From IMG/VR virus record IMGVR_UViG_3300031974_003988, positions 1 to 27,964 of that record: 27,964 nucleotides of DNA; one strand, 5' to 3'. Position 1 is the first letter of the stretch, and each line of letters begins with the position of its first letter. The notes below the pieces were generated by a model that saw only the letters and a program-made list of their open reading frames with translations, was not told the origin of the DNA and did no database searches. Both the position numbers and the translations under genes were made by a program. Source of the DNA: a virus. Shown one piece after another: positions 3 to 25,931 of this stretch.

Positions 3-1340
3 AAGGATGTAGCTGGCTGTGATGAGGCAAAAGAAGAGCTTGAGGATCTCGTGGAGTTTTTGCGAAACCCTAAAAAATTTACAGATATGGGTAGCAAGCT
101 CCCAAAAGGGGTTCTTCTACATGGTCCACCAGGGACCGGCAAGACATTATTAGCCAAAGCCATGGCAGGCGAGGCAGAAGTGCCGTTTCTTCTTGCTGCC
201 GGATCAGACTTCGTGGAGATGTTTGTGGGCGTCGGAGCGTCTAGAGTTAGAGATCTGTTTGATCAGGCTCATCAGTTAGCACCATGTGTGGTCTTCATTG
301 ATGAGATCGATGCTATTGGAAAAAAGAGAGGCGGACCTGGCACTGGGGGCAATGACGAGAGGGAGCAGACTTTGAATCAAATGTTGGTCGAGATGGATGG
401 CTTCGGAGAGAATTCAGGCATTATTATTTTAGCGGCTACAAATCGAGTCGAGACGTTGGACAAGGCCTTAACCCGCCCTGGGCGCTTTGATAGAAAAGTT
501 TCTGTGGGTTTGCCCGATGCTGGTGGCAGAAAAGAAATACTAAAAATCCACACTCGCAAGGTGCCCATTCATACAAGCCTTGATCTTGAAATGATCGCCC
601 GTACAACCTCTGGCTTTTCTGGTGCTGATTTGGCAAATCTTGTTAACGAGGCTTCTATCATAGCCGCACTAGAAGAGGCTCCCGTGGTTGATGATGATCA
701 TTTTGATCGAGCGAGAGACAAAATTACCATGGGGAAGCCACGCAAGTCGATGGCGATGTCGGAGTCGTCACGTCGTGCTACAGCAATCCACGAAGCGGGA
801 CACGCTCTGTTGGCTTACTACCTAGAGGACGCCGACCCACTACACAAGGTCACCATCATTCCTCACGGCAGAGCCCTCGGCTTAACAATGCAACTCCCAG
901 AAGACGACAAATATTCGTGGAGCAAAAAAGAAAACATCGCAAGAATTAAAGTATTGCTGGGCGGCTACATCGCAGAGAAAATGTTTTATGGTATTGAAGG
1001 CACATCAACAGGCGTATCAAATGACTTATTGCGAGCCAAACAAATAGCCGAGACAATGGTCAAAGACTACGGAATGGGCTCAGTCGGTCCAGTCTATTTC
1101 GGCAATGCCGCCGCTTACGGCAATCGTGGTGCTGATATGTCTGACTTCACCAAAGAGCAATTCGACACAGCCGTCAATGAGATTATGACCCAAGCCCTGC
1201 GGGAAGCAGAAGAACTACTCAATGAAAAGCGAGAGCACATCGTCATTCTAACCAATATGCTCTTGGAGCAGGACACAGTCCTAGAAGAAGAGTTGGAAGG
1301 TATGTTCGGTCTCCTCGACATTTATTTTGAGGAAGACTAA
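3..1340 (+). CDS. ftsH: FtsH-like ATP-dependent zinc metalloprotease, 5' end cut by window edge
   Basis: AAA+ protease that unfolds and degrades membrane or soluble proteins. The frame is open from base 3 with FtsH-like residues ([13 protein letters not shown]), so the gene enters from the left. The GTG at 51 is an internal codon, not a start. In the visible 445 residues: Walker A GPPGTGKT at 41-48, Walker B VVFIDEID, second region of homology ending RPGRFDRKV, zinc site HEAGH at 263-267, and the third metal ligand Asp341 in STGVSNDLL. All key catalytic residues are present. The N-terminal membrane segments that normally anchor FtsH lie outside the window, so membrane anchoring cannot be judged. 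The family is certain. A phage-encoded copy is unusual and would sit well with the GroEL, FKBP and ClpP-like genes downstream. Confidence 0.95.
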
Positions 1341-1398
1341 AATAAAACTTGACCGATAGAAACCCTGTGGTAATGTAGTATCACAGGGAGGAAGGTAT
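1341..1398 (+). promoter_or_regulatory. sigma70-like promoter with an overlapping dyad (candidate operator)
   Basis: TTGACC at 1349-1354, a 16-bp spacer, then TAATGT at 1371-1376, preceded by an A-rich stretch (AATAAAAC). A perfect inverted repeat, CCCTGTG (1363-1369) and CACAGGG (1382-1388), straddles the -10 box. The right arm runs into the ribosome binding site AGGGAGGAAGG. The left arm lies in the promoter spacer and would not be transcribed, so a DNA-level operator fits better than an RNA hairpin. Confidence 0.6.
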
Positions 1399-1917
1399 AT
1401 GAATATCTTTGCTATTGAAGGCGATGCCGAAACTGGTCAAATTGACTGGGAAGCATCTGCTCGTTCTCAAGACAACTTGCGGGTCGTCAAAATGATCCTA
1501 GAGTCATGTCAGATTCTATCCACAGTATTGAACGAGCAGGGGATGAAAGCCCCTTATCGCTCTTTCAATCCAAAGCACCCTTCGTGCTTATGGGCTGCCG
1601 AGTCAGCCAACAACTTTACCAACCTTGCCCTACATTGTCAGGCAATGATTGACGAGTACGAGCATCGCTTCGGCAAGACACACAAGTGCCAAGCAGTCCT
1701 TCACAAACTTATTGAGATGTTTGACCCTGATCTGTTTCCACAGCAGGAATGTACTCCATTGCGGCTCGCTATGCCCGAAGAGTTCCACTCAGACAATCCT
1801 GTTGTGTCTTATCGCAAGTTCTATGCCTCGAAGCCACGCTTGCGTTATCCAGTAGACAAAATTCCACAATGGGTGTATGATTATCGCACGGAGCCATTTG
1901 AGGTGGTCAATGGATAA
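1399..1917 (+). CDS. conserved phage protein of unknown function (VVKMILE / RFGKTHK family)
   Basis: 172 residues. The pattern NIFAIEGD, then RVVKMILESCQILSTVL, HPSCLW, EYEHRFGKTHK, LAMPEEF, YRKFYAS and PQWV matches a protein family I recall from many phage genomes, where the usual N-terminal motif is CDKHVVKMI(L/V)E. Its biochemical activity is not known to me. Some database entries may link it to pyrimidine-dimer glycosylases, but I see no T4 DenV-like motif and do not claim that. The usual Cys-Asp-Lys-His before VVKM is replaced here by a sequence ending NLR, so a normally conserved stretch has been lost. The start has a strong AGGGAGGAAGG site and its own promoter. Confidence 0.75.
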   Translation: MNIFAIEGDAETGQIDWEASARSQDNLRVVKMILESCQILSTVLNEQGMKAPYRSFNPKHPSCLWAAESANNFTNLALHCQAMIDEYEHRFGKTHKCQAVLHKLIEMFDPDLFPQQECTPLRLAMPEEFHSDNPVVSYRKFYASKPRLRYPVDKIPQWVYDYRTEPFEVVNG

Positions 1918-2188
1918 GCGCCACAAGAAGAAGCTTAAGCGAGCGGCAAAGAAAAAGCAGGACAAAGCCAAAGCACAGCAGCATGAGCAAAAGCTTTCTA
2001 AGCAGATGAACATGTTTGATCGTCTTCCGAAAGCTTGTAGTTCCTGTTCTAAAAAATTTCCTAAGACTCGTGAAGCGCATATGACCTGGAAAGTCACAGT
2101 TAGAAACAAAGAACAACAAGTCAGGTTATTCTGTCCTGACTGTCTAGAAAAAGCCAAAGCGGCTGTGGAGAATAGTAATGAAATTTAA
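1910..2188 (+). CDS. small zinc-ribbon protein
   Basis: 92 residues starting at ATG 1910, which overlaps the previous stop by 8 nt and follows a GAGGTGG ribosome site. An earlier in-frame ATG at 1877 lies deep inside the preceding gene and is unlikely. The first 30 residues are very basic (DKRHKKKLKRAAKKKQDK), suggesting nucleic-acid contact. The C-terminal half carries two Cys pairs, CSSC and CPDC, about 35 residues apart, as in a zinc ribbon. Function is unknown. It sits between the conserved phage protein and IMPDH, and its stop overlaps the IMPDH start by 11 nt, so the genes are probably co-transcribed. Confidence 0.75.
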   Translation: MDKRHKKKLKRAAKKKQDKAKAQQHEQKLSKQMNMFDRLPKACSSCSKKFPKTREAHMTWKVTVRNKEQQVRLFCPDCLEKAKAAVENSNEI

Positions 2189-3221
2189 AGAAGCGGTTAC
2201 TTATGACGACATGTTGCTCGTGCCTCAGTACAGTGACATTACAAGTCGGTCGGAGGTAAACATCTCCAGTTGGCTTAACTCAGAGCACTCTTTGGGGTTA
2301 CCGATCCTTGCCTCACCGATGGATACGGTGTCTGAAGTAGACATGAGTATTGCCATGGCGCAAGCCGGCGGATTAGCTGTTATCCATCGTTATAATACCA
2401 TTCCTGAACAGGGAGCCTTGGTAAACCAAGCAGCTAATCATGCTAGCACATCTCTAGTCGCTGCAGCGATCGGGGTGACAGGCGACTATTTGGAGAGGGC
2501 TACCAGTGTTGTTTCACTTGGTGCCAATGTGCTTTGTGTGGACGTGGCTCACGGTCATCACGTCATGATGAAAAAAGCACTCGAACAATTACGCAAATCT
2601 TTCGGTGAAGATATTTATATTATCGCAGGGAATGTCTGTACGTTGGAGGGTGTAAACAATGTCAGTGATTGGGGGGCTGATGCTATACGCTGTAATATTG
2701 GTGGCGGCTCCATTTGTTCTACTCGGATTGTCACAGGGCACGGTTTACCCGGTCTCCAAACGATCTTCGACTGCGCCCGAACAGATCGTGATGTTAAGAT
2801 CATCGCAGACGGCGGCATCAAAACCTCAGGAGATATTGTCAAAGCCTTAGCAGCAGGCGCAGATTTTGTAATGTGTGGCTCTCTTCTAGCAGGCACCCAA
2901 GAAAGTCCAGGTCAGATTGTCACCCTTCCTGATGGTAGTCGCATGAAAGAGTACCGAGGTATGGCATCTAAGGATGCTCAGATGGATTGGCGGAATAAGT
3001 CTTCGACCCCAGAGGGCGTGGCATCGTACATTCCCTTCAAGGGTAGCGTAACGGATATTCTCGCCGATCTTCGAGGCGGTATTCAGAGCGGTCTTTCATA
3101 CTCTGGTGCTCGCACGATCGCCCAACTTCAACACAAGGCTGAGTGGGCTCGCCAAACATCGGCTGGCACTGTTGAGAGCGGCACCCACATTCTCACTGCT
3201 CAAGATGGGCGGAGGAAATAA
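2178..3221 (+). CDS. guaB: IMP dehydrogenase / GMP reductase family protein without CBS domains
   Basis: A 347-residue TIM-barrel enzyme of purine nucleotide metabolism. N-terminal TYDDMLLVPQYSD and SPMDTVSE match IMPDH. The catalytic loop GGGSICSTR places the nucleophile at Cys180. ADGGIKTSGDIVKALAAGADFVM is the phosphate-binding region. IMPDH has about 490 residues with a CBS pair after the first barrel strands; here the chain runs straight from VIHRYNTIPEQ to VAAAIGVTGDY, so the CBS pair is absent and the length equals that of GMP reductase. The C-terminal part (KAEWARQTSAGTVESGTHI) resembles IMPDH (AEFVRISGAGIQESHVHDV). The mobile-flap Arg-Tyr pair of IMPDH is not evident. I favour IMPDH activity, but GMP reductase is possible. 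Confidence 0.88.
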   Translation: MKFKEAVTYDDMLLVPQYSDITSRSEVNISSWLNSEHSLGLPILASPMDTVSEVDMSIAMAQAGGLAVIHRYNTIPEQGALVNQAANHASTSLVAAAIGVTGDYLERATSVVSLGANVLCVDVAHGHHVMMKKALEQLRKSFGEDIYIIAGNVCTLEGVNNVSDWGADAIRCNIGGGSICSTRIVTGHGLPGLQTIFDCARTDRDVKIIADGGIKTSGDIVKALAAGADFVMCGSLLAGTQESPGQIVTLPDGSRMKEYRGMASKDAQMDWRNKSSTPEGVASYIPFKGSVTDILADLRGGIQSGLSYSGARTIAQLQHKAEWARQTSAGTVESGTHILTAQDGRRK

Positions 3222-3222
3222 A

Positions 3223-3555
3223 ATGTTTTATCGTAAAGATGGAAAAGAACAACAAGACGAAATCAATCGCACCCCGACTCAAGACGAAGTTCAGTACGGA
3301 CCCAACCCAAAATGCTTCGAAGTCCACGAAAAGTGGCAGGTAGAATGTGATCAAACTAGTTGCCGCAATTGGATGAGCTACGAAGAAGACTTGAATTGCG
3401 CAATGGTCTGCGCAAGGAAATACCCAGCAGGTTTAAGTTTGCGAGAAGTTGCCGAAAGAATGGCAGTTAGTTTTCCTCGGGTTAGTCAAATAGAGCACGG
3501 AGCATTTAAAAAAATGAGAGATATGGGAATAATTAAGGAATTAGAAGACGAATAG
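3223..3555 (+). CDS. small sigma-70 region 4-like DNA-binding protein
   Basis: 110 residues starting at ATG 3223 behind GGAGG at 3211-3215. An upstream in-frame ATG lies inside IMPDH and is discounted. The C-terminal helix-turn-helix LSLREVAERMAVSFPRVSQIEHGAFKKMRDMG follows the sigma70 region 4.2 pattern (normally LREIGERLGVSRERVRQIEKKALRKLR). Before it lie the Cys-containing segments VECDQTSCRNWMSYEEDLNCAMVC, which I recall from short phage proteins often named sigma-factor-like. There is no region 2, so it cannot act alone as a sigma factor. It could be a transcriptional regulator or a partner of a phage sigma. It is the last gene before the first change of upstream signal. Confidence 0.7.
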   Translation: MFYRKDGKEQQDEINRTPTQDEVQYGPNPKCFEVHEKWQVECDQTSCRNWMSYEEDLNCAMVCARKYPAGLSLREVAERMAVSFPRVSQIEHGAFKKMRDMGIIKELEDE

Positions 3556-3628
3556 GTTCTTTTACAATATAACAAACTATTTATATTTGATTGCCTTTGG
3601 CGTCGAATACAACAAGGAGTATATTACA
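3556..3628 (+). promoter_or_regulatory. intergenic region with TATTTATA motif (candidate second-class promoter)
   Basis: A 73-nt gap without TTGACA- or TATAAT-like boxes at usual spacing. It carries CTATTTATA at 3577-3585, 43 nt before the next start. The same nine bases recur in the next clear gap (6176-6184). A ribosome site AAGGAG follows at 3614-3619. The promoter assignment is inference. Confidence 0.35.
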
Positions 3629-4357
3629 ATGACAAAGAAAGCTTCAAAGCTAATTAATGAACGTGTTATCCGCCGCTGGGGCAAGTTGGCAAACATGCCA
3701 GCACTCACCGAGAATTTTATCGATAGTCTCGAAGAAGATGCTATGGAAGATGAAATGGATGCCGCCGAAGACGAGGTCGCTGCTGGTGAAGCAGAGATGG
3801 AAGCCGGTGAAGAGGCTGAGGCTTCCCTAGAAGAAAAAGAAGCCGTAGAAAATATCGTACAAGCTGTCGTCGATGCCATCGCCGCCGAAACTGGTGTTGA
3901 TATCGAAGTCGAGGGCGGTGCTGATGAGAGCGCCATGGACGACATGGACGCCGGCATGGACGCCTCAGACGAACTTGATGACGATGCCGACATGGATATG
4001 GATGACGCTGACGCCGCAATGCGTGACAGCGATCCAGCTATGCGTGACAGCGATCCAGCTATGCGCAACCGTGTGGCTATGAACCGCACCGACGAGGGCA
4101 AGCATGGCATGGGCAAAGGTGACCAATCTAAGTCTCGTGCCGACTATGAAGGCGAAAAAGACAAGGACGCCAAAGAAGATAAGGAAGAGCGTGAAGCTTA
4201 TGACAAGAAGCACAAGGGCTCTGGCGCTCGCAAGGGCGACCAAAGCAAGTCTAAGGCTGACTTTGAAGAGGCTCTTGATCTTGAGATCGTTGACGACGAA
4301 GCTCTTACCGAAGCTGTCCTCAAGCGTGTCGTAGAACGCCTACTTAAAAAGAACTAA
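3629..4357 (+). CDS. very acidic, repetitive, probably virion-associated protein
   Basis: 242 residues starting at ATG 3629 after AAGGAG; the in-frame ATG at 3587 has no such site. After a basic N-terminus (TKKASKLINERVIRRWGKL), residues about 30-130 are dominated by Asp, Glu, Ala and Met. Two identical heptapeptides MRDSDPA follow at 131-144, then two copies of a KGDQSKS(R/K)AD(Y/F)E segment separated by a charged linker. The C-terminus is an amphipathic helix, LTEAVLKRVVERLLKKN. Strong acidity and low complexity recall head-core or scaffold-type proteins of T4-like phages, but no family motif proves it. It heads the 3.6-8.7 kb gene run. Confidence 0.6.
   Translation: MTKKASKLINERVIRRWGKLANMPALTENFIDSLEEDAMEDEMDAAEDEVAAGEAEMEAGEEAEASLEEKEAVENIVQAVVDAIAAETGVDIEVEGGADESAMDDMDAGMDASDELDDDADMDMDDADAAMRDSDPAMRDSDPAMRNRVAMNRTDEGKHGMGKGDQSKSRADYEGEKDKDAKEDKEEREAYDKKHKGSGARKGDQSKSKADFEEALDLEIVDDEALTEAVLKRVVERLLKKN
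4019..4060 (+). repeat. two identical 21-bp tandem repeats inside the acidic gene
   Basis: Two exact copies (4019-4039 and 4040-4060) each encode MRDSDPA, and the next codons (ATGCGCAAC) begin a degenerate third copy. Identity at the DNA level implies recent in-frame duplication. Confidence 0.9.
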
Positions 4358-6476: not shown

Positions 6477-7831
6477 TGAACTTAAAACCCCAGCAAGTTG
6501 GCTTGATTATCGCTAGTGGACCAGTTCGAGATGAGTTCTCTCGGAAGATTAAAGAATTAGATCGTCGTTTGAAAATGAACGGCATGAGCTATCCCCAGTG
6601 GGATACGCTCACTGATCATCAACAGGAGATCTTTATAGATAATCTATTTCTTGACGGCGAGTGTGCCGTTAGTCCAGAGAATTATGTCCACGGAGCAGTG
6701 TCTAGCTGTGGGTGTCCAGATGTAGTGGAAGACCTACACCACCACTCCCCAGTATTGATGAGGGAAATAGAAAAACAACAGGAAGCCATGCCTGACATGA
6801 CTTTGAGGGTCACTGAAGCCTTACAATCTTTAAACGAATTTATTGACACACAAGTCGATAAATTTAGACTGACTGAAAGCAAGACCCAACGAGCCTTTGA
6901 TCTGTATGAGCAAAAGGTTTATGGTGCCTGTGCCCAGACAGATATTCTAGGACCCTGGTCAATTGCTAAGGCTGGTGCTTCTCCAGATGAGACTGGACCA
7001 GATATCCAGATTCAAATACCAGGACTAGACCCAGCCTTTGTGGAAGTAAAGCTTAACCTAAAAGCCGGCATGGGCGAGGGTTCTGCTAATTACTCCCCAG
7101 AACAAGGAAAGTTTAATATTGTTGTCCCTCGGGACAAACCACCAATGGAACCAGAGTTCGCTGAGTTTGTACTTCAGGAACTGTACAGCAACGAGCAGAA
7201 CATTAAAGAGTTCGCCCTAGCGATCAGAGACTGGCGTCGTAAAGCAAGCTACAAGTGGGACTCCACACGAGGTGGCGATCCTAGTTTGTTCGCTTTTCCT
7301 TTTAGTACCACTTACGAAGCTTATGCCAACGCAGTCAAGGCAGGGTTGTACCGTAAAGCCTCCGAGTGGCCTACGGCTGGTGGCGGTGTGATGCTCCCTG
7401 ACTTCTTTATTCACAAGCTTTATGCCCGAAAGGATACTTTCTATATCCAAGTGGGGCGCAAGGGACTTTATTATTTGGCAGAGAACCCGCTGAATCTGCC
7501 AGTGCCGCAGTTCCCATCTAAGGCTGCTCTTATCTATCGCCCTAAGCCATCTGGCTCTAAGAAACTGCCACCAACACCAGAGCAAGCAGCACGGGGAGAA
7601 AAAGGAGATATTAATTACGGATGGGAGAGCCAAGACCCACGCCCTGAAGGAGAGCGTGATGATCGAAACTATTCCCCTTATAACGGAACGTTCATGATTC
7701 AGTCAAAGCTCCCCACAGGTGCCAACCTGCCCAGTTCGCCGTACACGCTAGATGACCCAGCAAGCATTGAGGCATTGCTGGCAGCACTAAATGTAGAGAC
7801 AGAACAACCGGAAGAAAGTGAGGGCTTGTGA
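6476..7831 (+). CDS. unknown 451-residue protein with a PD-(D/E)XK-like motif
   Basis: No family recognised with certainty. An early segment carries HHH and several Cys (SSCGCPDVVEDLHHHSP). The central segment GPDIQIQIPGLDPAFVEVKL has Asp176 and Glu190-Val-Lys192, the spacing and beta-hairpin setting of the PD-(D/E)XK nuclease core, followed by a Gly-rich stretch and SPEQGKFNIVV. The C-terminal 120 residues are rich in Pro, Gly and charged residues and look flexible. The start overlaps the EF-hand-like gene by one base, and the end overlaps the Mom-like gene by 4 nt (GTGA). It could be a nuclease acting with that protein, or a virion protein with a chance motif. Confidence 0.5.
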   Translation: MNLKPQQVGLIIASGPVRDEFSRKIKELDRRLKMNGMSYPQWDTLTDHQQEIFIDNLFLDGECAVSPENYVHGAVSSCGCPDVVEDLHHHSPVLMREIEKQQEAMPDMTLRVTEALQSLNEFIDTQVDKFRLTESKTQRAFDLYEQKVYGACAQTDILGPWSIAKAGASPDETGPDIQIQIPGLDPAFVEVKLNLKAGMGEGSANYSPEQGKFNIVVPRDKPPMEPEFAEFVLQELYSNEQNIKEFALAIRDWRRKASYKWDSTRGGDPSLFAFPFSTTYEAYANAVKAGLYRKASEWPTAGGGVMLPDFFIHKLYARKDTFYIQVGRKGLYYLAENPLNLPVPQFPSKAALIYRPKPSGSKKLPPTPEQAARGEKGDINYGWESQDPRPEGERDDRNYSPYNGTFMIQSKLPTGANLPSSPYTLDDPASIEALLAALNVETEQPEESEGL

Positions 7832-8748
7832 GAGCCGATCCATTTGAACGCTTCAAAGATCTAAAAGAAAATCACTGCTGGCAATACGAAGTAAGACTTC
7901 GCAACAGCAAGAAAGACCTACGAGAACTAGGCAAGGACCAGAAGTGGGCTGAGAGCCTACGGACTGATGACTTTGACTTTGCCTATGTTGATAAGGCAGC
8001 CAAAGCACAATGTGCTGAAATCAAAGCATTTATCGAACGCCACGAGTTCCTAGGCATTCTACCCAACCGACCAACTCACCGCTTCACTGCTCGGCTTAAG
8101 AACAGCGGAGTGTTGGCTGGCGTGGTTGTTATGGCGACGCCCAACACATTCAGCTTTCTGCTGGGGCGAGAAAATAGAGACATTATTAAATTGGTATCAA
8201 GAGGAGCATCAATTAGTTGGGCTCCCAAGAACCTAGGTTCATGGCTGGTGTCCCGTGCTTGTAAGTGGATGGTCCAAAACACAGAGTTCAGGTGCTTCGA
8301 AGCCTACAGCGATCCACTGGCTAAAGAGTTGGGAACAATCTATCAGGCACTGAACTGGACCTACCTTGGTCAAACTTCGGGCACAATAAAAATGTATAGG
8401 GACCCAGATGCCCTAGAGAAGGGCTGGTTTAGCGACCGAGAATTCCGAAAGAAATCTAAGTATCGTCGCTATGCTGAAGCAGCGGGCATCCCATACGAGG
8501 AATGGAAAAAATACCTAGGTAAATACACTCCTAAATGGGATGAAATGCCTTTTGGCTGGAAAGAAAAGGTCAAAGAACAAGAGAAGCTTTACCGAGAGAG
8601 TTGCGAGTGCCGAGTTGTGCCCTCGAAACACAAGTACTGCTACATTTTGGGCAGATCAAAAAAAGAAACTAAACAATTGCGCAATTTATTTGTACAATGT
8701 AATCCTAAACGGGCAAACCTGCCCTATCCTAAAGAAAGAGGAGAATAA
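7828..8748 (+). CDS. GNAT-fold protein resembling Mom DNA-modification family
   Basis: 306 residues from GTG 7828, overlapping the previous stop in GTGA. The core LVSRGASISWAPKNLGSWLVSRACKWM (APKN at 132-135), then YSDPLAKELGTIYQALNWTYLGQTSG (YSDP at 160-163), parallels the Mom pattern I recall from Mu-like proteins: a Ser-Arg strand, PKN-x-x-S helix, then YADP, GxxYQAxNW and YxG. Mom proteins add a carbamoylmethyl group to adenine and share the acetyltransferase fold. The C-terminal 100 residues are basic with Cys and Trp (CECRVVPSKHKYCYILG) and could bind DNA. A plain GNAT acetyltransferase is the main alternative. Confidence 0.55.
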   Translation: MRADPFERFKDLKENHCWQYEVRLRNSKKDLRELGKDQKWAESLRTDDFDFAYVDKAAKAQCAEIKAFIERHEFLGILPNRPTHRFTARLKNSGVLAGVVVMATPNTFSFLLGRENRDIIKLVSRGASISWAPKNLGSWLVSRACKWMVQNTEFRCFEAYSDPLAKELGTIYQALNWTYLGQTSGTIKMYRDPDALEKGWFSDREFRKKSKYRRYAEAAGIPYEEWKKYLGKYTPKWDEMPFGWKEKVKEQEKLYRESCECRVVPSKHKYCYILGRSKKETKQLRNLFVQCNPKRANLPYPKERGE

Positions 8749-9179: not shown

Positions 9180-10784
<1,605 letters not shown>

Positions 10785-20895: not shown

Positions 20896-21807
20896 ATGGG
20901 TTATCGCACTAATCAATGCTCTGCTTGTGCCGGCTGGGGTCACAATCGTCGTGGTTGCCCTGAGATCAAAGCGGCTTATGAGAAGGTCGCCAAGCTCTGT
21001 GCTAAATACGGCATTGAACCTGACCCTGTAGCTTACCGCTCTACGTGGCTCGACCCCCTTCGAGAAAAGCAGATGGCAGCCCATGGTGTCAGCGACTACT
21101 ATGAGATTCACCACCTTGATCACGAAGAGCACATCAGCTACTGGGAAGCCTGCCGCTTTCAAGAGCACGGCGAGCGCCTCGCTGCCGCTGACCGACGCAA
21201 AAAGCGTGGCGTAAAGCGTCAATGTAGTTTCTGCGGCAAGACTGGTCACAACCGTCGCAACTGCCCAGAGAAGGAAGCTCACGAGCGTGAGTGCCGTGCG
21301 ATGAAAGCTCTGGCTCACCGAGTTGCTCGAATGACCTTTGAGGCTGCTGGCATTGTTCCCGGCGCTTTGATTCAGTATCGTGATTTTGATTACACCACGA
21401 GAGACTATGTTAATCGTGTCGGCTTGGTCCAGGGCATTGACTGGTCACAGATTGGCAAGCAAGACGTAGAGAATAGCAGCGGCTTGGGCAATGTACTTGA
21501 GTACTGGATCTTCCGTGGTAGCAAAGCCATTATCATCAAGGACCACGAAGGTCGCACTCGCCCCGTTGCGGTTCCCCGAAACATTGAACAGCAGAGTAAT
21601 TATTTTGCCAACTCGGGTCCCTCAGGCTTCGAACTGATCTGCCCCGTTCAGGGTTCCCGTGTGAACCTTGACGGCTACGAGGGCGACAGCGAGTTCCCTG
21701 TCAGTATGCCGGTCTACATGTGGGGTGGCGAGTGGGTGAGCAAGCGATTCGGCAACAAAATTATCAAGGCTATCAAAGAGGTTGGTAGCGAACTCATCGT
21801 AGCGTAA
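20896..21807 (+). CDS. protein with two CCHC zinc knuckles
   Basis: 303 residues. Two retroviral-type knuckles with exact C-x2-C-x4-H-x4-C spacing: Cys8, Cys11, His16, Cys21 (CSACAGWGHNRRGC) and Cys110, Cys113, His118, Cys123 (CSFCGKTGHNRRNC). Such knuckles bind single-stranded RNA or DNA. The region between them is helical and charged. Residues 150-303 are a strand-rich domain (GALIQYRDFDY, NRVGLVQGIDW) that I do not recognise. Codons are markedly G/C-biased at third positions, and the gene has its own strong promoter, pointing to high expression. Confidence 0.75.
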   Translation: MGYRTNQCSACAGWGHNRRGCPEIKAAYEKVAKLCAKYGIEPDPVAYRSTWLDPLREKQMAAHGVSDYYEIHHLDHEEHISYWEACRFQEHGERLAAADRRKKRGVKRQCSFCGKTGHNRRNCPEKEAHERECRAMKALAHRVARMTFEAAGIVPGALIQYRDFDYTTRDYVNRVGLVQGIDWSQIGKQDVENSSGLGNVLEYWIFRGSKAIIIKDHEGRTRPVAVPRNIEQQSNYFANSGPSGFELICPVQGSRVNLDGYEGDSEFPVSMPVYMWGGEWVSKRFGNKIIKAIKEVGSELIVA

Positions 21808-21818
21808 GGAGAAAAGCT

Positions 21819-22016
21819 ATGGAATTCAGTAACTTAGACCCCTATTCGCCAAACCTTTTAGATCGCATTGTTGCGTTTGATAAGATCTGGGAATTGCGAG
21901 AGCAGTACCATAAAGATGCTTATAGTCGCATTTTTGATGAGCCCGACTTTTGGGACCCGATGCTCCACAAGGAGTTTCGTGGTCAGCACGGTTGGACTCG
22001 GTTGGGGAGCGCATGA
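21819..22016 (+). CDS. unknown 65-residue protein
   Basis: ATG 21819 follows AAGGAGAAAAG. Acidic and aromatic (NLDPYSPNLLDRIVAFDKIWELREQYHKDAYSRIFDEPDFWDPMLHK). No family recognised. Its stop overlaps the start of the putative endonuclease; it could be a small partner of the R-M genes, but nothing in the sequence shows this. Confidence 0.55.
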   Translation: MEFSNLDPYSPNLLDRIVAFDKIWELREQYHKDAYSRIFDEPDFWDPMLHKEFRGQHGWTRLGSA

Positions 22017-23492: not shown

Positions 23493-23592
23493 CTTTACAT
23501 ATATGTAAATGTATCAACTTTACATATGTCTAAATGTATCAACTTTACATATGTCTAAATGTATCAACTTTACATATGTCTAAATGTATCAA
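23493..23592 (+). repeat. four tandem 25-bp direct repeats
   Basis: Units at 23493-23517, 23518-23542, 23543-23567 and 23568-23592, with no spacers. Units 2-4 are identical and begin CTTTACATATGTCTAAATGT; unit 1 differs at a few bases (TATATGTAAA in place of TATGTCTAAA). Each unit holds the palindrome ACATATGT and TACAT...ATGTA half-sites. Each also begins with CTTTACA, the same as the -35 box of the promoter 55 bp downstream. Iteron, centromere-like or regulator-binding array are the options. Confidence 0.95.
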
Positions 23593-23717
23593 ATCCCAAT
23601 CAGTGACCTGACTGCCACACTCTGGCTAAAAAAACAAAAATAAAAACTTTACACCCTAAGACTCTGTGGTATATTACTAGCAGGCAAAAAAACAAAGACC
23701 TAGAAAGGGGAAAACAA
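23593..23717 (+). promoter_or_regulatory. sigma70-like promoter before the ParB-like gene
   Basis: TTTACA at 23648-23653, a 16-bp spacer and TATATT at 23670-23675, preceded by an A-rich stretch (AATAAAAAC). A ribosome site, GAAAGGGG, leads to ATG 23718. The 50 bases before the promoter (23593-23642) show nothing I can name. Confidence 0.6.
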
Positions 23718-25514
23718 ATGCCAAAAAGTGATCGATATAAGTGGTCGTCAAAGATTCACCAAAGAATGTTCTTAGAGCTAAGAGCAAGACTTGGGGTATA
23801 TAAGGTGTGGTCGGCTGTCATGCAGCCCCACAATGGACCTGGTCAAGCTGACCTTTACCAAAAGGCTTTAGAGGAAGTGGCGGCTGTTCTGGGAGAGGTA
23901 TTCCCAGCCCATGAATATACTGCTACGCAAGTTAAGCAGCAAATCAATTTCGCTCTTCAGCAAGGAATTCGAGCTAAGGGCTATAGTCACCAAAAGTCTT
24001 CACACCACAAGAACGCCTTGAGGGTTCTCAATGAAGCTCTCAGTACTGGCTTCATGGCGAAAGAAGACATTCACGGAAGCTTTTTTGGGTTTCTGAGCCA
24101 GGAGTCTGGGACAGATACGCCCGAGTTGAGCAAACTTCGTAGCTGGTTTCAAGCAAACAAGACTCACACACCTGCTAACTACACGCCAGATCTTGAGGAC
24201 TATCTCAAGTACGACCGCAATCTTCAAGACTGGGACTGGTCACAGGTAGATACTATCGTTCGCCGCCTTAATCGTGTGCTAACTCTGAGCAAGGCAAATT
24301 ATAGTAGAGCCGAGCTTAAGTCTGCTAAAACCCTTAAAAAGATTCTCAACCAATTTAAGACGGGTGAGCGCAAGCTCGAAATGATCTTGCCAGATCATGT
24401 AGTCAAGTTTGTCCAGGTGCGAAAAGTAGAGTTTGTAGATAAAAATCTGAAAAGGCTACTAGAAAGCATCCCAGAACGTGGTCTCGACGCTCCGTGCTTG
24501 GGAACCTGGGATGACATGATTGAGCGGACAGTGACGGGACACAACGGTAATCATCGCTGGGATGTTTGTCGTGATCTGATTGCGCTAGGTGTCCTCCCTC
24601 CTGATTTCAAGATGCCGTTCATGCTTCTTACTGAAGAGGAGCGCCTTAATTGCCACGCTGCCTTCAGAATGATTAAGGACATGGCAAACATTGAGGTGGT
24701 CCAAGCAGGAAGTGACATCTCTGATGTCGCCGAGTCTGCCAAGGATCTTATTCGCACCAACGGCTTGGGACCAAAGCTTTTAGATGTCGATCTCTCTAAG
24801 AATACTCTAGCTGGTAAGAAGAATCCGGCTGTCGTAATGGTACGTGAGCGCATGATCGACAGTTTCGGTGGTGGGGTACACACCAATACGCTTATCATTC
24901 GGACTGTCTACGATGTTATCCGATCGCTGGCAGCAAAAGCTAGCGATGACGGGAAGATCGAACACCGCAAAAAAGAGAAAATGTATGAAGAATTGGACAA
25001 GTACACTGGCTGGAAGGTCTTAGAGGGAACTAAAGCAACATTTACTCATCCTGGCGTAGGTAAATTTGCTGGATACTTTGGACCTCTGGGATCTGAGTGG
25101 AAGACGGCACTGATTGATAATCACTCTGGGACAACTGAGAACACTTACTTCCTCGGTGGACTAATCGATGCTAAAATTAATGGTCAAAAGATGCTTCACA
25201 TTATGCGAGACACAAAGCATAAGGGAGACGTCGAAAAGATTGTAGAAAACATCGAAAAGAAGTTTAACTTCTATAAAGTCTACAACGAGAAAGTTAAGGC
25301 AGCGATCTATGATGAGGCAGAGATGCTACTTCCAGATATGATTGCGGTTCCCAACTACTTTACTAAAGATTGTGAGTTTATGCTCCGTGGGAAAAAGGTA
25401 AAAGCAAAGAGCAACACAGGGGCTTTTATCTTCATCAAGCGATTCGAGCTAGAAAAATGGATAAAGTCAGATACAACCACGGTGCCACTTAGCTGGATTT
25501 TTAAGGTAAAATAA
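23718..25514 (+). CDS. 598-residue protein with a ParB/sulfiredoxin-like core
   Basis: Residues 1-215 are helical and unrecognised. Residues about 235-330 resemble a ParB N-terminal domain: VKFVQVRKVEFVDKNLKRLLESIPERGLDAPCLGTWDD, then GHNGNHRWDV at 274-283, where ParB proteins have the (D/N)GxHR signature (CTP or nucleotide binding), and ALGVLPPDFKMPFMLLTEEE. The remainder (380-598) has no clear family; it contains RERMIDSFGGGVHTNTLIIRTVYDVI and a basic C-terminus. It is the first gene after four tandem repeats and a promoter, which suggests it could bind them. The ParB match is by motif only. Confidence 0.5.
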   Translation: MPKSDRYKWSSKIHQRMFLELRARLGVYKVWSAVMQPHNGPGQADLYQKALEEVAAVLGEVFPAHEYTATQVKQQINFALQQGIRAKGYSHQKSSHHKNALRVLNEALSTGFMAKEDIHGSFFGFLSQESGTDTPELSKLRSWFQANKTHTPANYTPDLEDYLKYDRNLQDWDWSQVDTIVRRLNRVLTLSKANYSRAELKSAKTLKKILNQFKTGERKLEMILPDHVVKFVQVRKVEFVDKNLKRLLESIPERGLDAPCLGTWDDMIERTVTGHNGNHRWDVCRDLIALGVLPPDFKMPFMLLTEEERLNCHAAFRMIKDMANIEVVQAGSDISDVAESAKDLIRTNGLGPKLLDVDLSKNTLAGKKNPAVVMVRERMIDSFGGGVHTNTLIIRTVYDVIRSLAAKASDDGKIEHRKKEKMYEELDKYTGWKVLEGTKATFTHPGVGKFAGYFGPLGSEWKTALIDNHSGTTENTYFLGGLIDAKINGQKMLHIMRDTKHKGDVEKIVENIEKKFNFYKVYNEKVKAAIYDEAEMLLPDMIAVPNYFTKDCEFMLRGKKVKAKSNTGAFIFIKRFELEKWIKSDTTTVPLSWIFKVK

Positions 25515-25634: not shown

Positions 25635-25931
25635 ATGAAAAAGATTATCCATGTAAACCAGCACGTCATCCGTCGGAATACAAAACAAGGCACTGACGAG
25701 CCTGTCTTAACGGTAAAGACATATAAAGAAAACAATTATGCCCACGAGGCTATAATCAAAACTAAAGATGGTGTAGAATTAGGAAGGGTCATTTACAGTC
25801 CGCACAAGCCCCTAAGTTGTGGAGCCCGAGTGTGGATTGAGATGGACACCGAAACTACTGATGTTGAGCTTGTTGTAAGAAAAGGAGAAGACGATGCCCA
25901 GCGGAACCCGGAGTTATGTGACAGTTTATGA
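25635..25931 (+). CDS. conserved phage protein of unknown function, 98 residues
   Basis: ATG 25635 after GAGGTAAAG. The pattern KKIIHVNQHVIRRNTKQGTDEPVLTVKTYKENNYAHE and PLSCGARVWIEM is one I recall from many phage genomes, without an assigned role. A strand-rich small domain is likely. The last 38 nt overlap the following gene. Confidence 0.7.
   Translation: MKKIIHVNQHVIRRNTKQGTDEPVLTVKTYKENNYAHEAIIKTKDGVELGRVIYSPHKPLSCGARVWIEMDTETTDVELVVRKGEDDAQRNPELCDSL

Follow-up and report, generated by a model that had tools for sequence, protein, structure and literature searches.

Published work indicates that the ParB fold is re-used widely in phages, in proteins whose functions are unknown. Orphan phage proteins with this fold are often fused to N6/N4 methyltransferases, and they bind CTP, ATP or GTP (PMC12704722). 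ParB-like DNases are found in phage conflict proteins and in GmrSD (PMC5512222, PMC4619093). DndB, a DGQHR-motif protein, is also counted as ParB-like (PMC12704722), and it binds palindromes of the form TACG-N10-CGTA at the promoter of its own gene (PMC4507180). In TIGR arrays, two repeats of 8-12 nt alternate, separated by 9-nt spacers that vary, and a Nop-domain protein accompanies them (PMC12045711).

Here we investigated a locus that brings together a ParB-like gene, a repeat array and DNA modification genes. The window, a virus record of 27,964 bases, carries tailed-phage genes by Pfam and PHROGs annotation (head maturation protease, GroEL, IMPDH, a Mom-like protein and ThyX) and represents part of the genome of a large marine tailed phage. 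The features of the locus are given in Table 1. We propose, with a probability of roughly 0.6, that the 598-aa protein P598 serves a phage restriction-modification cassette as an orphan accessory with a ParB/Srx fold, that this cassette is carried in a horizontally acquired insert, and that the adjoining array is a recent duplication.

Table 1. Positions, in window coordinates, of the features in and around the insert
Feature	Position	Strand	Remarks
Small ORF, 65 aa	21819..22016	+	Left edge of insert; also in relatives without the cassette
Predicted PD-(D/E)xK restriction-type nuclease, 211 aa	22013..22648	+	phrog_18119, E 2.8e-30
N6/N4 DNA methyltransferase, 280 aa	22645..23487	+	Pfam PF01555, E 5e-38
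Tandem array, 4 x 25 bp, spacerless	23493..23592	+	Each unit with TACA-N10-TGTA
Possible sigma-70-like P598 promoter, TTTACA-16-TATATT, TG before -10	23648..23675	+	Consensus match only
P598, orphan 598-aa protein; probable ParB/Srx-fold domain at about residues 219-313	23718..25514	+	Profiles, AF2 segment model
P598 residues 215-345, modeled as a ParB/Srx domain	24360..24752	+	AF2 pLDDT 74.7, pTM 0.63
Small ORF, 37 aa	25517..25630	+	Right edge of insert; in relatives without the cassette
g98, conserved anchor gene adjoining variable slot	25635..25931	+	phrog_8676

The insert and the slot beside g98

Relatives of the phage were collected by a GroEL-based search, which returned 18 records with GroEL 77-91% identical to that of the window. 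Gene order is kept across most of the window in these records, and related phage records reach up to 190 kb in length. The searches covered collections other than metagenome records, and these collections may lack the record that the window comes from as well as its nearest neighbors. The order of the genes for an FtsH/clamp-loader-like AAA ATPase (51-1340), IMP dehydrogenase (2178-3221), the Mom-like DNA modification protein (7828-8748) and GroEL (9189-10784) is kept in many relatives. A 303-aa protein (20896-21807) with zinc-knuckle-like CxxC-GHxxxxC motifs and weak Pfam zf-CCHC matches also holds a conserved position in the phage group.

In the relatives, g303 and g98 lie close together, and g98 itself is 79-96% identical. 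The closest relative, G013, whose neighboring genes are 82-96% identical, has both flanking small ORFs directly adjacent to one another and thus presents an empty site. By blastn, DNA homology of the window to G013 ends at 21824 and restarts at 25514; the left small ORF is recognizable at the protein level up to its end, and the right one begins just past the restart. The left ORF is homologous to the small ORF between g303 and g98 in L125 (...DFWDPMLHKEFRGQHGWTRLGSA versus ...DFWDPFLHNEFQTRRGWHKLGSA). Since the site is empty in the closest relatives, the array and P598 form one inserted cassette together with the nuclease and methyltransferase genes. Judged from these alignments, the interval from 22013 to about 25514 (~3.5 kb) is a single scarless insert, horizontally acquired, with these four elements as its content. 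We regard the gene order, the insertion site, the absence from relatives and the family membership of the methyltransferase as established.

What do other phages of the group carry at this place? ParB-like genes lie upstream of g98 in four relatives (L129, L134, L135 and L159) and downstream of it in two (L132 and L123). The L159 protein is over the Pfam ParB_N cut-off (3.6e-8), and those of L129, L134, L135 and L117 give weak matches to PHROG ParB families. GmrSD-HNH genes occupy the slot in L120, where the match is over the Pfam cut-off, and in L141, where it is weak. Other genes around g98 include sugar-nucleotide enzymes and other methyltransferases. Read from these gene contents, the place beside g98 is a hot spot of gene exchange, a slot whose occupants change rapidly. 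In L129, L134, L135, L136, L159, L132, L133, L123, L120 and L141, the direct upstream or downstream neighbors of g98 are ParB-like or GmrSD-HNH genes that diverge widely from one another. Sugar-nucleotide epimerase, glycosyltransferase-like and mutase-like genes stand beside g98 instead at L104:2650-3630, L112:3741-6471 and L103:10009-13419.

The first two genes of the insert resemble a Type II restriction-modification system in that nuclease and DNA methyltransferase genes are adjacent, with functions predicted from sequence. The nuclease gene had been listed from a TTG at 21950. The ATG at 22013 overlaps the stop of the small ORF (ATGA overlap) and is probably the true start, the listed TTG being wrong. 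The conservation of P-D-F and E-C-K in at least 90% of aligned homologues suggests a PD-(D/E)xK nuclease, an activity predicted from this motif. The methyltransferase has relatives 65-78% identical in many marine phages. Record L053 holds a nuclease homologue, a methyltransferase homologue and then a ParB-like gene (1261-4151), the same order as in the window; its ParB-like protein has a homing-endonuclease-type N-terminus. Moreover, methyltransferases lie within ~2 kb of the ParB-like gene in L134, L135/136, L123 and L033. Against an accessory role for P598, the nuclease-methyltransferase pair recurs in many phages without it, and P598 is therefore not an obligate partner.

The ParB-like center of P598

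The first-pass annotation had pointed to a GHNGNHRW segment in the 598-aa ORF, proposed a ParB-type center, and suggested profile searches and structure prediction of the central region. The segment is present, at residues 274-281, and in the alignment G277, H279 and R280 fall on the G, H and R that are invariant, or nearly so, in the relatives (GxHR, P motif). ParB-domain profiles built from 12 and 18 domains match P598 weakly (E 0.02 and 0.015), scoring above all 2000 shuffles; the aligned stretch, residues 228-287, is in register. Pairwise comparison with four ParB-like proteins of the slot places the best P598 matches in one region, residues ~170-365.

We modeled the central segment with AF2 from an alignment of 11 distant relatives. 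The rows of this alignment are ParB-like and can bias the model toward a ParB fold, so that the model, of moderate confidence, is not independent of the sequence matches. In a Foldseek search of the PDB, Noc, ParB, plant sulfiredoxin and KorB were among the first matches (best E 3.5e-4, probability 1.00). VIA-align Z values were 8-9.6, with KorB at 9.6, Caulobacter ParB at 9.2 and sulfiredoxin at 8.7, and a viral structure library listed ParB-like phage proteins. Together, the ParB-like genes seen at the corresponding position in relatives, the profile scores and the matches of the segment model support a ParB fold. The proposal of a ParB-type center thus holds up: on the modeled structure, the domain probably has a ParB/Srx fold, in a very divergent form.

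The alternative is that P598 is not a ParB/Srx protein at all, that GHNGNHRW is a chance resemblance within another fold, and that the array is a neutral product of slippage. Even with permissive limits, the ParB segment matched nothing in Pfam, PHROG or the PDB sequences. In addition, GHNGNHR has extra residues relative to GHHR, and a whole-protein AF2 model from the single sequence was unusable (pLDDT 36). A chance resemblance would nevertheless have to account for the common region hit by four ParB proteins, the scores of two profiles over every shuffle, the match of the modeled fold to ParB, Noc, Srx and KorB, and the ParB-like genes at the same position in relatives. We therefore consider it rather unlikely and retain the ParB/Srx assignment.

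Long N- and C-terminal regions with no assigned fold flank the central domain. A C-terminal module common to P598 and the slot proteins seemed plausible by eye and failed against shuffles, and a C-terminal Pfam match to YpM (E 0.0084, below cut-off) was taken as chance. Searches for a P598 homologue came back empty, both by tblastn in phages and plasmids and by scanning viral and genome contigs with patterns from five query segments. Constraint on the protein therefore cannot be measured.

The repeat array: partition, origin or operator

Tandem Repeats Finder recovers the four spacerless repeats that had been described between the methyltransferase and the 598-residue ORF (period 25, 4.0 copies, 97% match, no indels). 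The units run head-to-tail, and two positions in copy 1 set it apart from copies 2-4, which are identical. The array has a GC content of 23%, begins 6 nt past the methyltransferase stop and ends 125 bp before the P598 ATG. Allowing up to three mismatches, we found the unit at four places in the window, each of them in the array, and in none of 100 shuffles. An exact copy is missing from the viral collection, a search with three mismatches in 20 related records was likewise negative, and the 400 bp upstream of the relatives' ParB-like genes hold no tandem array. The suggested search for the same repeat elsewhere was thus negative in these sequences. Because the units are nearly identical and absent elsewhere, the array appears to be a recent, lineage-specific tandem duplication upstream of the putative promoter of P598. 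As to function, it would be at most a lineage-specific operator.

Such arrays were seldom met in the 2 Mb examined, one comparable case being that of Synechococcus phage S-SKS1. There, 4.7 identical copies of a 22-bp unit (L003:10364-10467) lie where no annotated gene covers the array. Elsewhere in the window, a 21-bp unit is repeated 2.2 times with no mismatch (4019-4065) within a 256-aa ORF of unknown function. We also considered the array as an RNA element; it has no Rfam match, and its RNA fold z of -2.4 is what is expected from repeats pairing with each other.

Could the array and P598 form a one-protein partition system or replication origin, with the repeats as centromere or iterons and P598 as their binding protein? 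This proposal draws on the ParB fold and the directly repeated, AT-rich array that adjoins the gene. However, none of the 18 related phage records searched for P598 contains it. An iteron origin would have repeats conserved with an initiator gene and a replicon, and here both the repeat and P598 are absent from related records, including long ones. This absence and the empty site in close relatives indicate that neither element is needed for the replication or segregation of those phages. The remark that no ParA-like ATPase lies beside the gene proved correct: the window has no match to PF13614 or PF01656, which, the window being a fragment, speaks to nearness only. No ParA was found over the family cut-off in 14 related records, with controls found in 14/14 genomes, and a search of P598 for the ParA-binding motif defined for ParB, [LFI]G[KR]G[LFI] (PMC12704722), was negative. 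Moreover, the insert keeps company with restriction-modification genes. A function of P598 and the array in segregation or as an origin for the phage is thus unlikely, and a dedicated array-plus-protein system for segregation or replication, one of the possibilities that the first-pass annotation envisaged, is very improbable given that P598 is missing from 18 relatives, the repeat from 20, and ParA from the records searched.

An operator role is suggested by the form of the unit. As a DndB-like autoregulator, P598 would regulate its own gene or the cassette by binding all four units, which lie upstream of its promoter; the array would then be an operator, with cooperative binding from its four copies. 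TACA-N10-TGTA occurs in every unit, and the form TACN-N10-N'GTA arises in 0.36% of composition-preserving shuffled units. A promoter-like site with an extended -10 lies between the array and P598, 56 bp downstream of the array, and KorB, the best structural match by Z, is a transcriptional repressor. However, the motif comparison was post hoc, and the shuffle rate rises to 3.6% with any spacer of 4-14. Copy 1 contains a perfect 16-bp palindrome (p 0.03); a general dyad test of units 2-4 is not significant (p 0.6), the array lies upstream of the promoter-like site and not over it, and the relatives' ParB-like genes have no array. Sigma-70-like sites in the region are no commoner than in shuffles. 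Autoregulation by P598 is thus an unlikely reading, and the likeness of TACA-N10-TGTA to DndB sites is an after-the-fact lead for an operator role and no more. The fuller version of this idea, in which P598 would be a DndB-like ParB/Srx-fold controller of the restriction-modification cassette that reads four TACA-N10-TGTA operators, in a slot where relatives swap unrelated ParB-like proteins, seems to us quite unlikely.

P598 among known ParB-fold systems

We return to the reading of P598 as an accessory of the restriction-modification cassette. P598 may use its GxHR pocket to bind an NTP, and it would then act with the modification cassette as a protein that binds or nicks DNA under an NTP switch, with no part in partition. 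Its task in the cassette could be restriction, anti-restriction, or an attack on host or rival DNA. This role is proposed by analogy with the gene order of L053, the slot genes near methyltransferases and the published surveys. The locus and the slot of its relatives together provide about ten divergent ParB-like proteins, most of them beside one anchor gene and several adjoining DNA methyltransferases. Such a set would allow DNA modification conflicts to be tested against segregation as the role of phage ParB-fold proteins.

How does P598 compare with described systems? Canonical ParABS and Noc resemble it in the fold of the central domain, whereas the P598 locus has no ParA, no ParA-binding motif and no parS recognizable by sequence, and the phage group does not conserve it. 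TIGR-Tas systems that include tasParB likewise have a parB-like gene near an array in viruses. The unit structure rules out a TIGR array here, units 2-4 being identical and spacerless, and the annotated genes include no Nop protein. The type IV restriction enzymes GmrSD and BrxU share a ParB/Srx-fold domain with P598, their NTPase domain acts in restriction, and GmrSD-HNH genes fill the same phage slot in L141 and L120. However, P598 has no GmrSD_N or HNH match in Pfam and no DGQQR motif, and its structural match to BrxU is weak (Z 4.5).

DndB, of the DGQHR family and a regulator of DNA phosphorothioation, is similar in its ParB-like fold, its GxHR-type motif, its adjacent DNA-modification genes and the candidate operator geometry TACN-N10-NGTA. 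The P598 locus differs in that no Dnd genes are among the annotated window genes, the neighbors by Pfam and PHROGs being a methyltransferase and a nuclease-like gene, and in that its candidate sites form four tandem copies ahead of the promoter-like site. Compared with the orphan phage ParB-CTPase-fold proteins (PMC12704722), P598 falls below Pfam ParB_N detection and has unassigned N- and C-terminal regions, and its methyltransferase is a separate gene beside it, in contrast to the fusions in the surveyed proteins. Like them, P598 would carry a ParB-fold domain within a larger protein, has no neighboring ParA, resides on a mobile element and is linked to an N6/N4 DNA methyltransferase.
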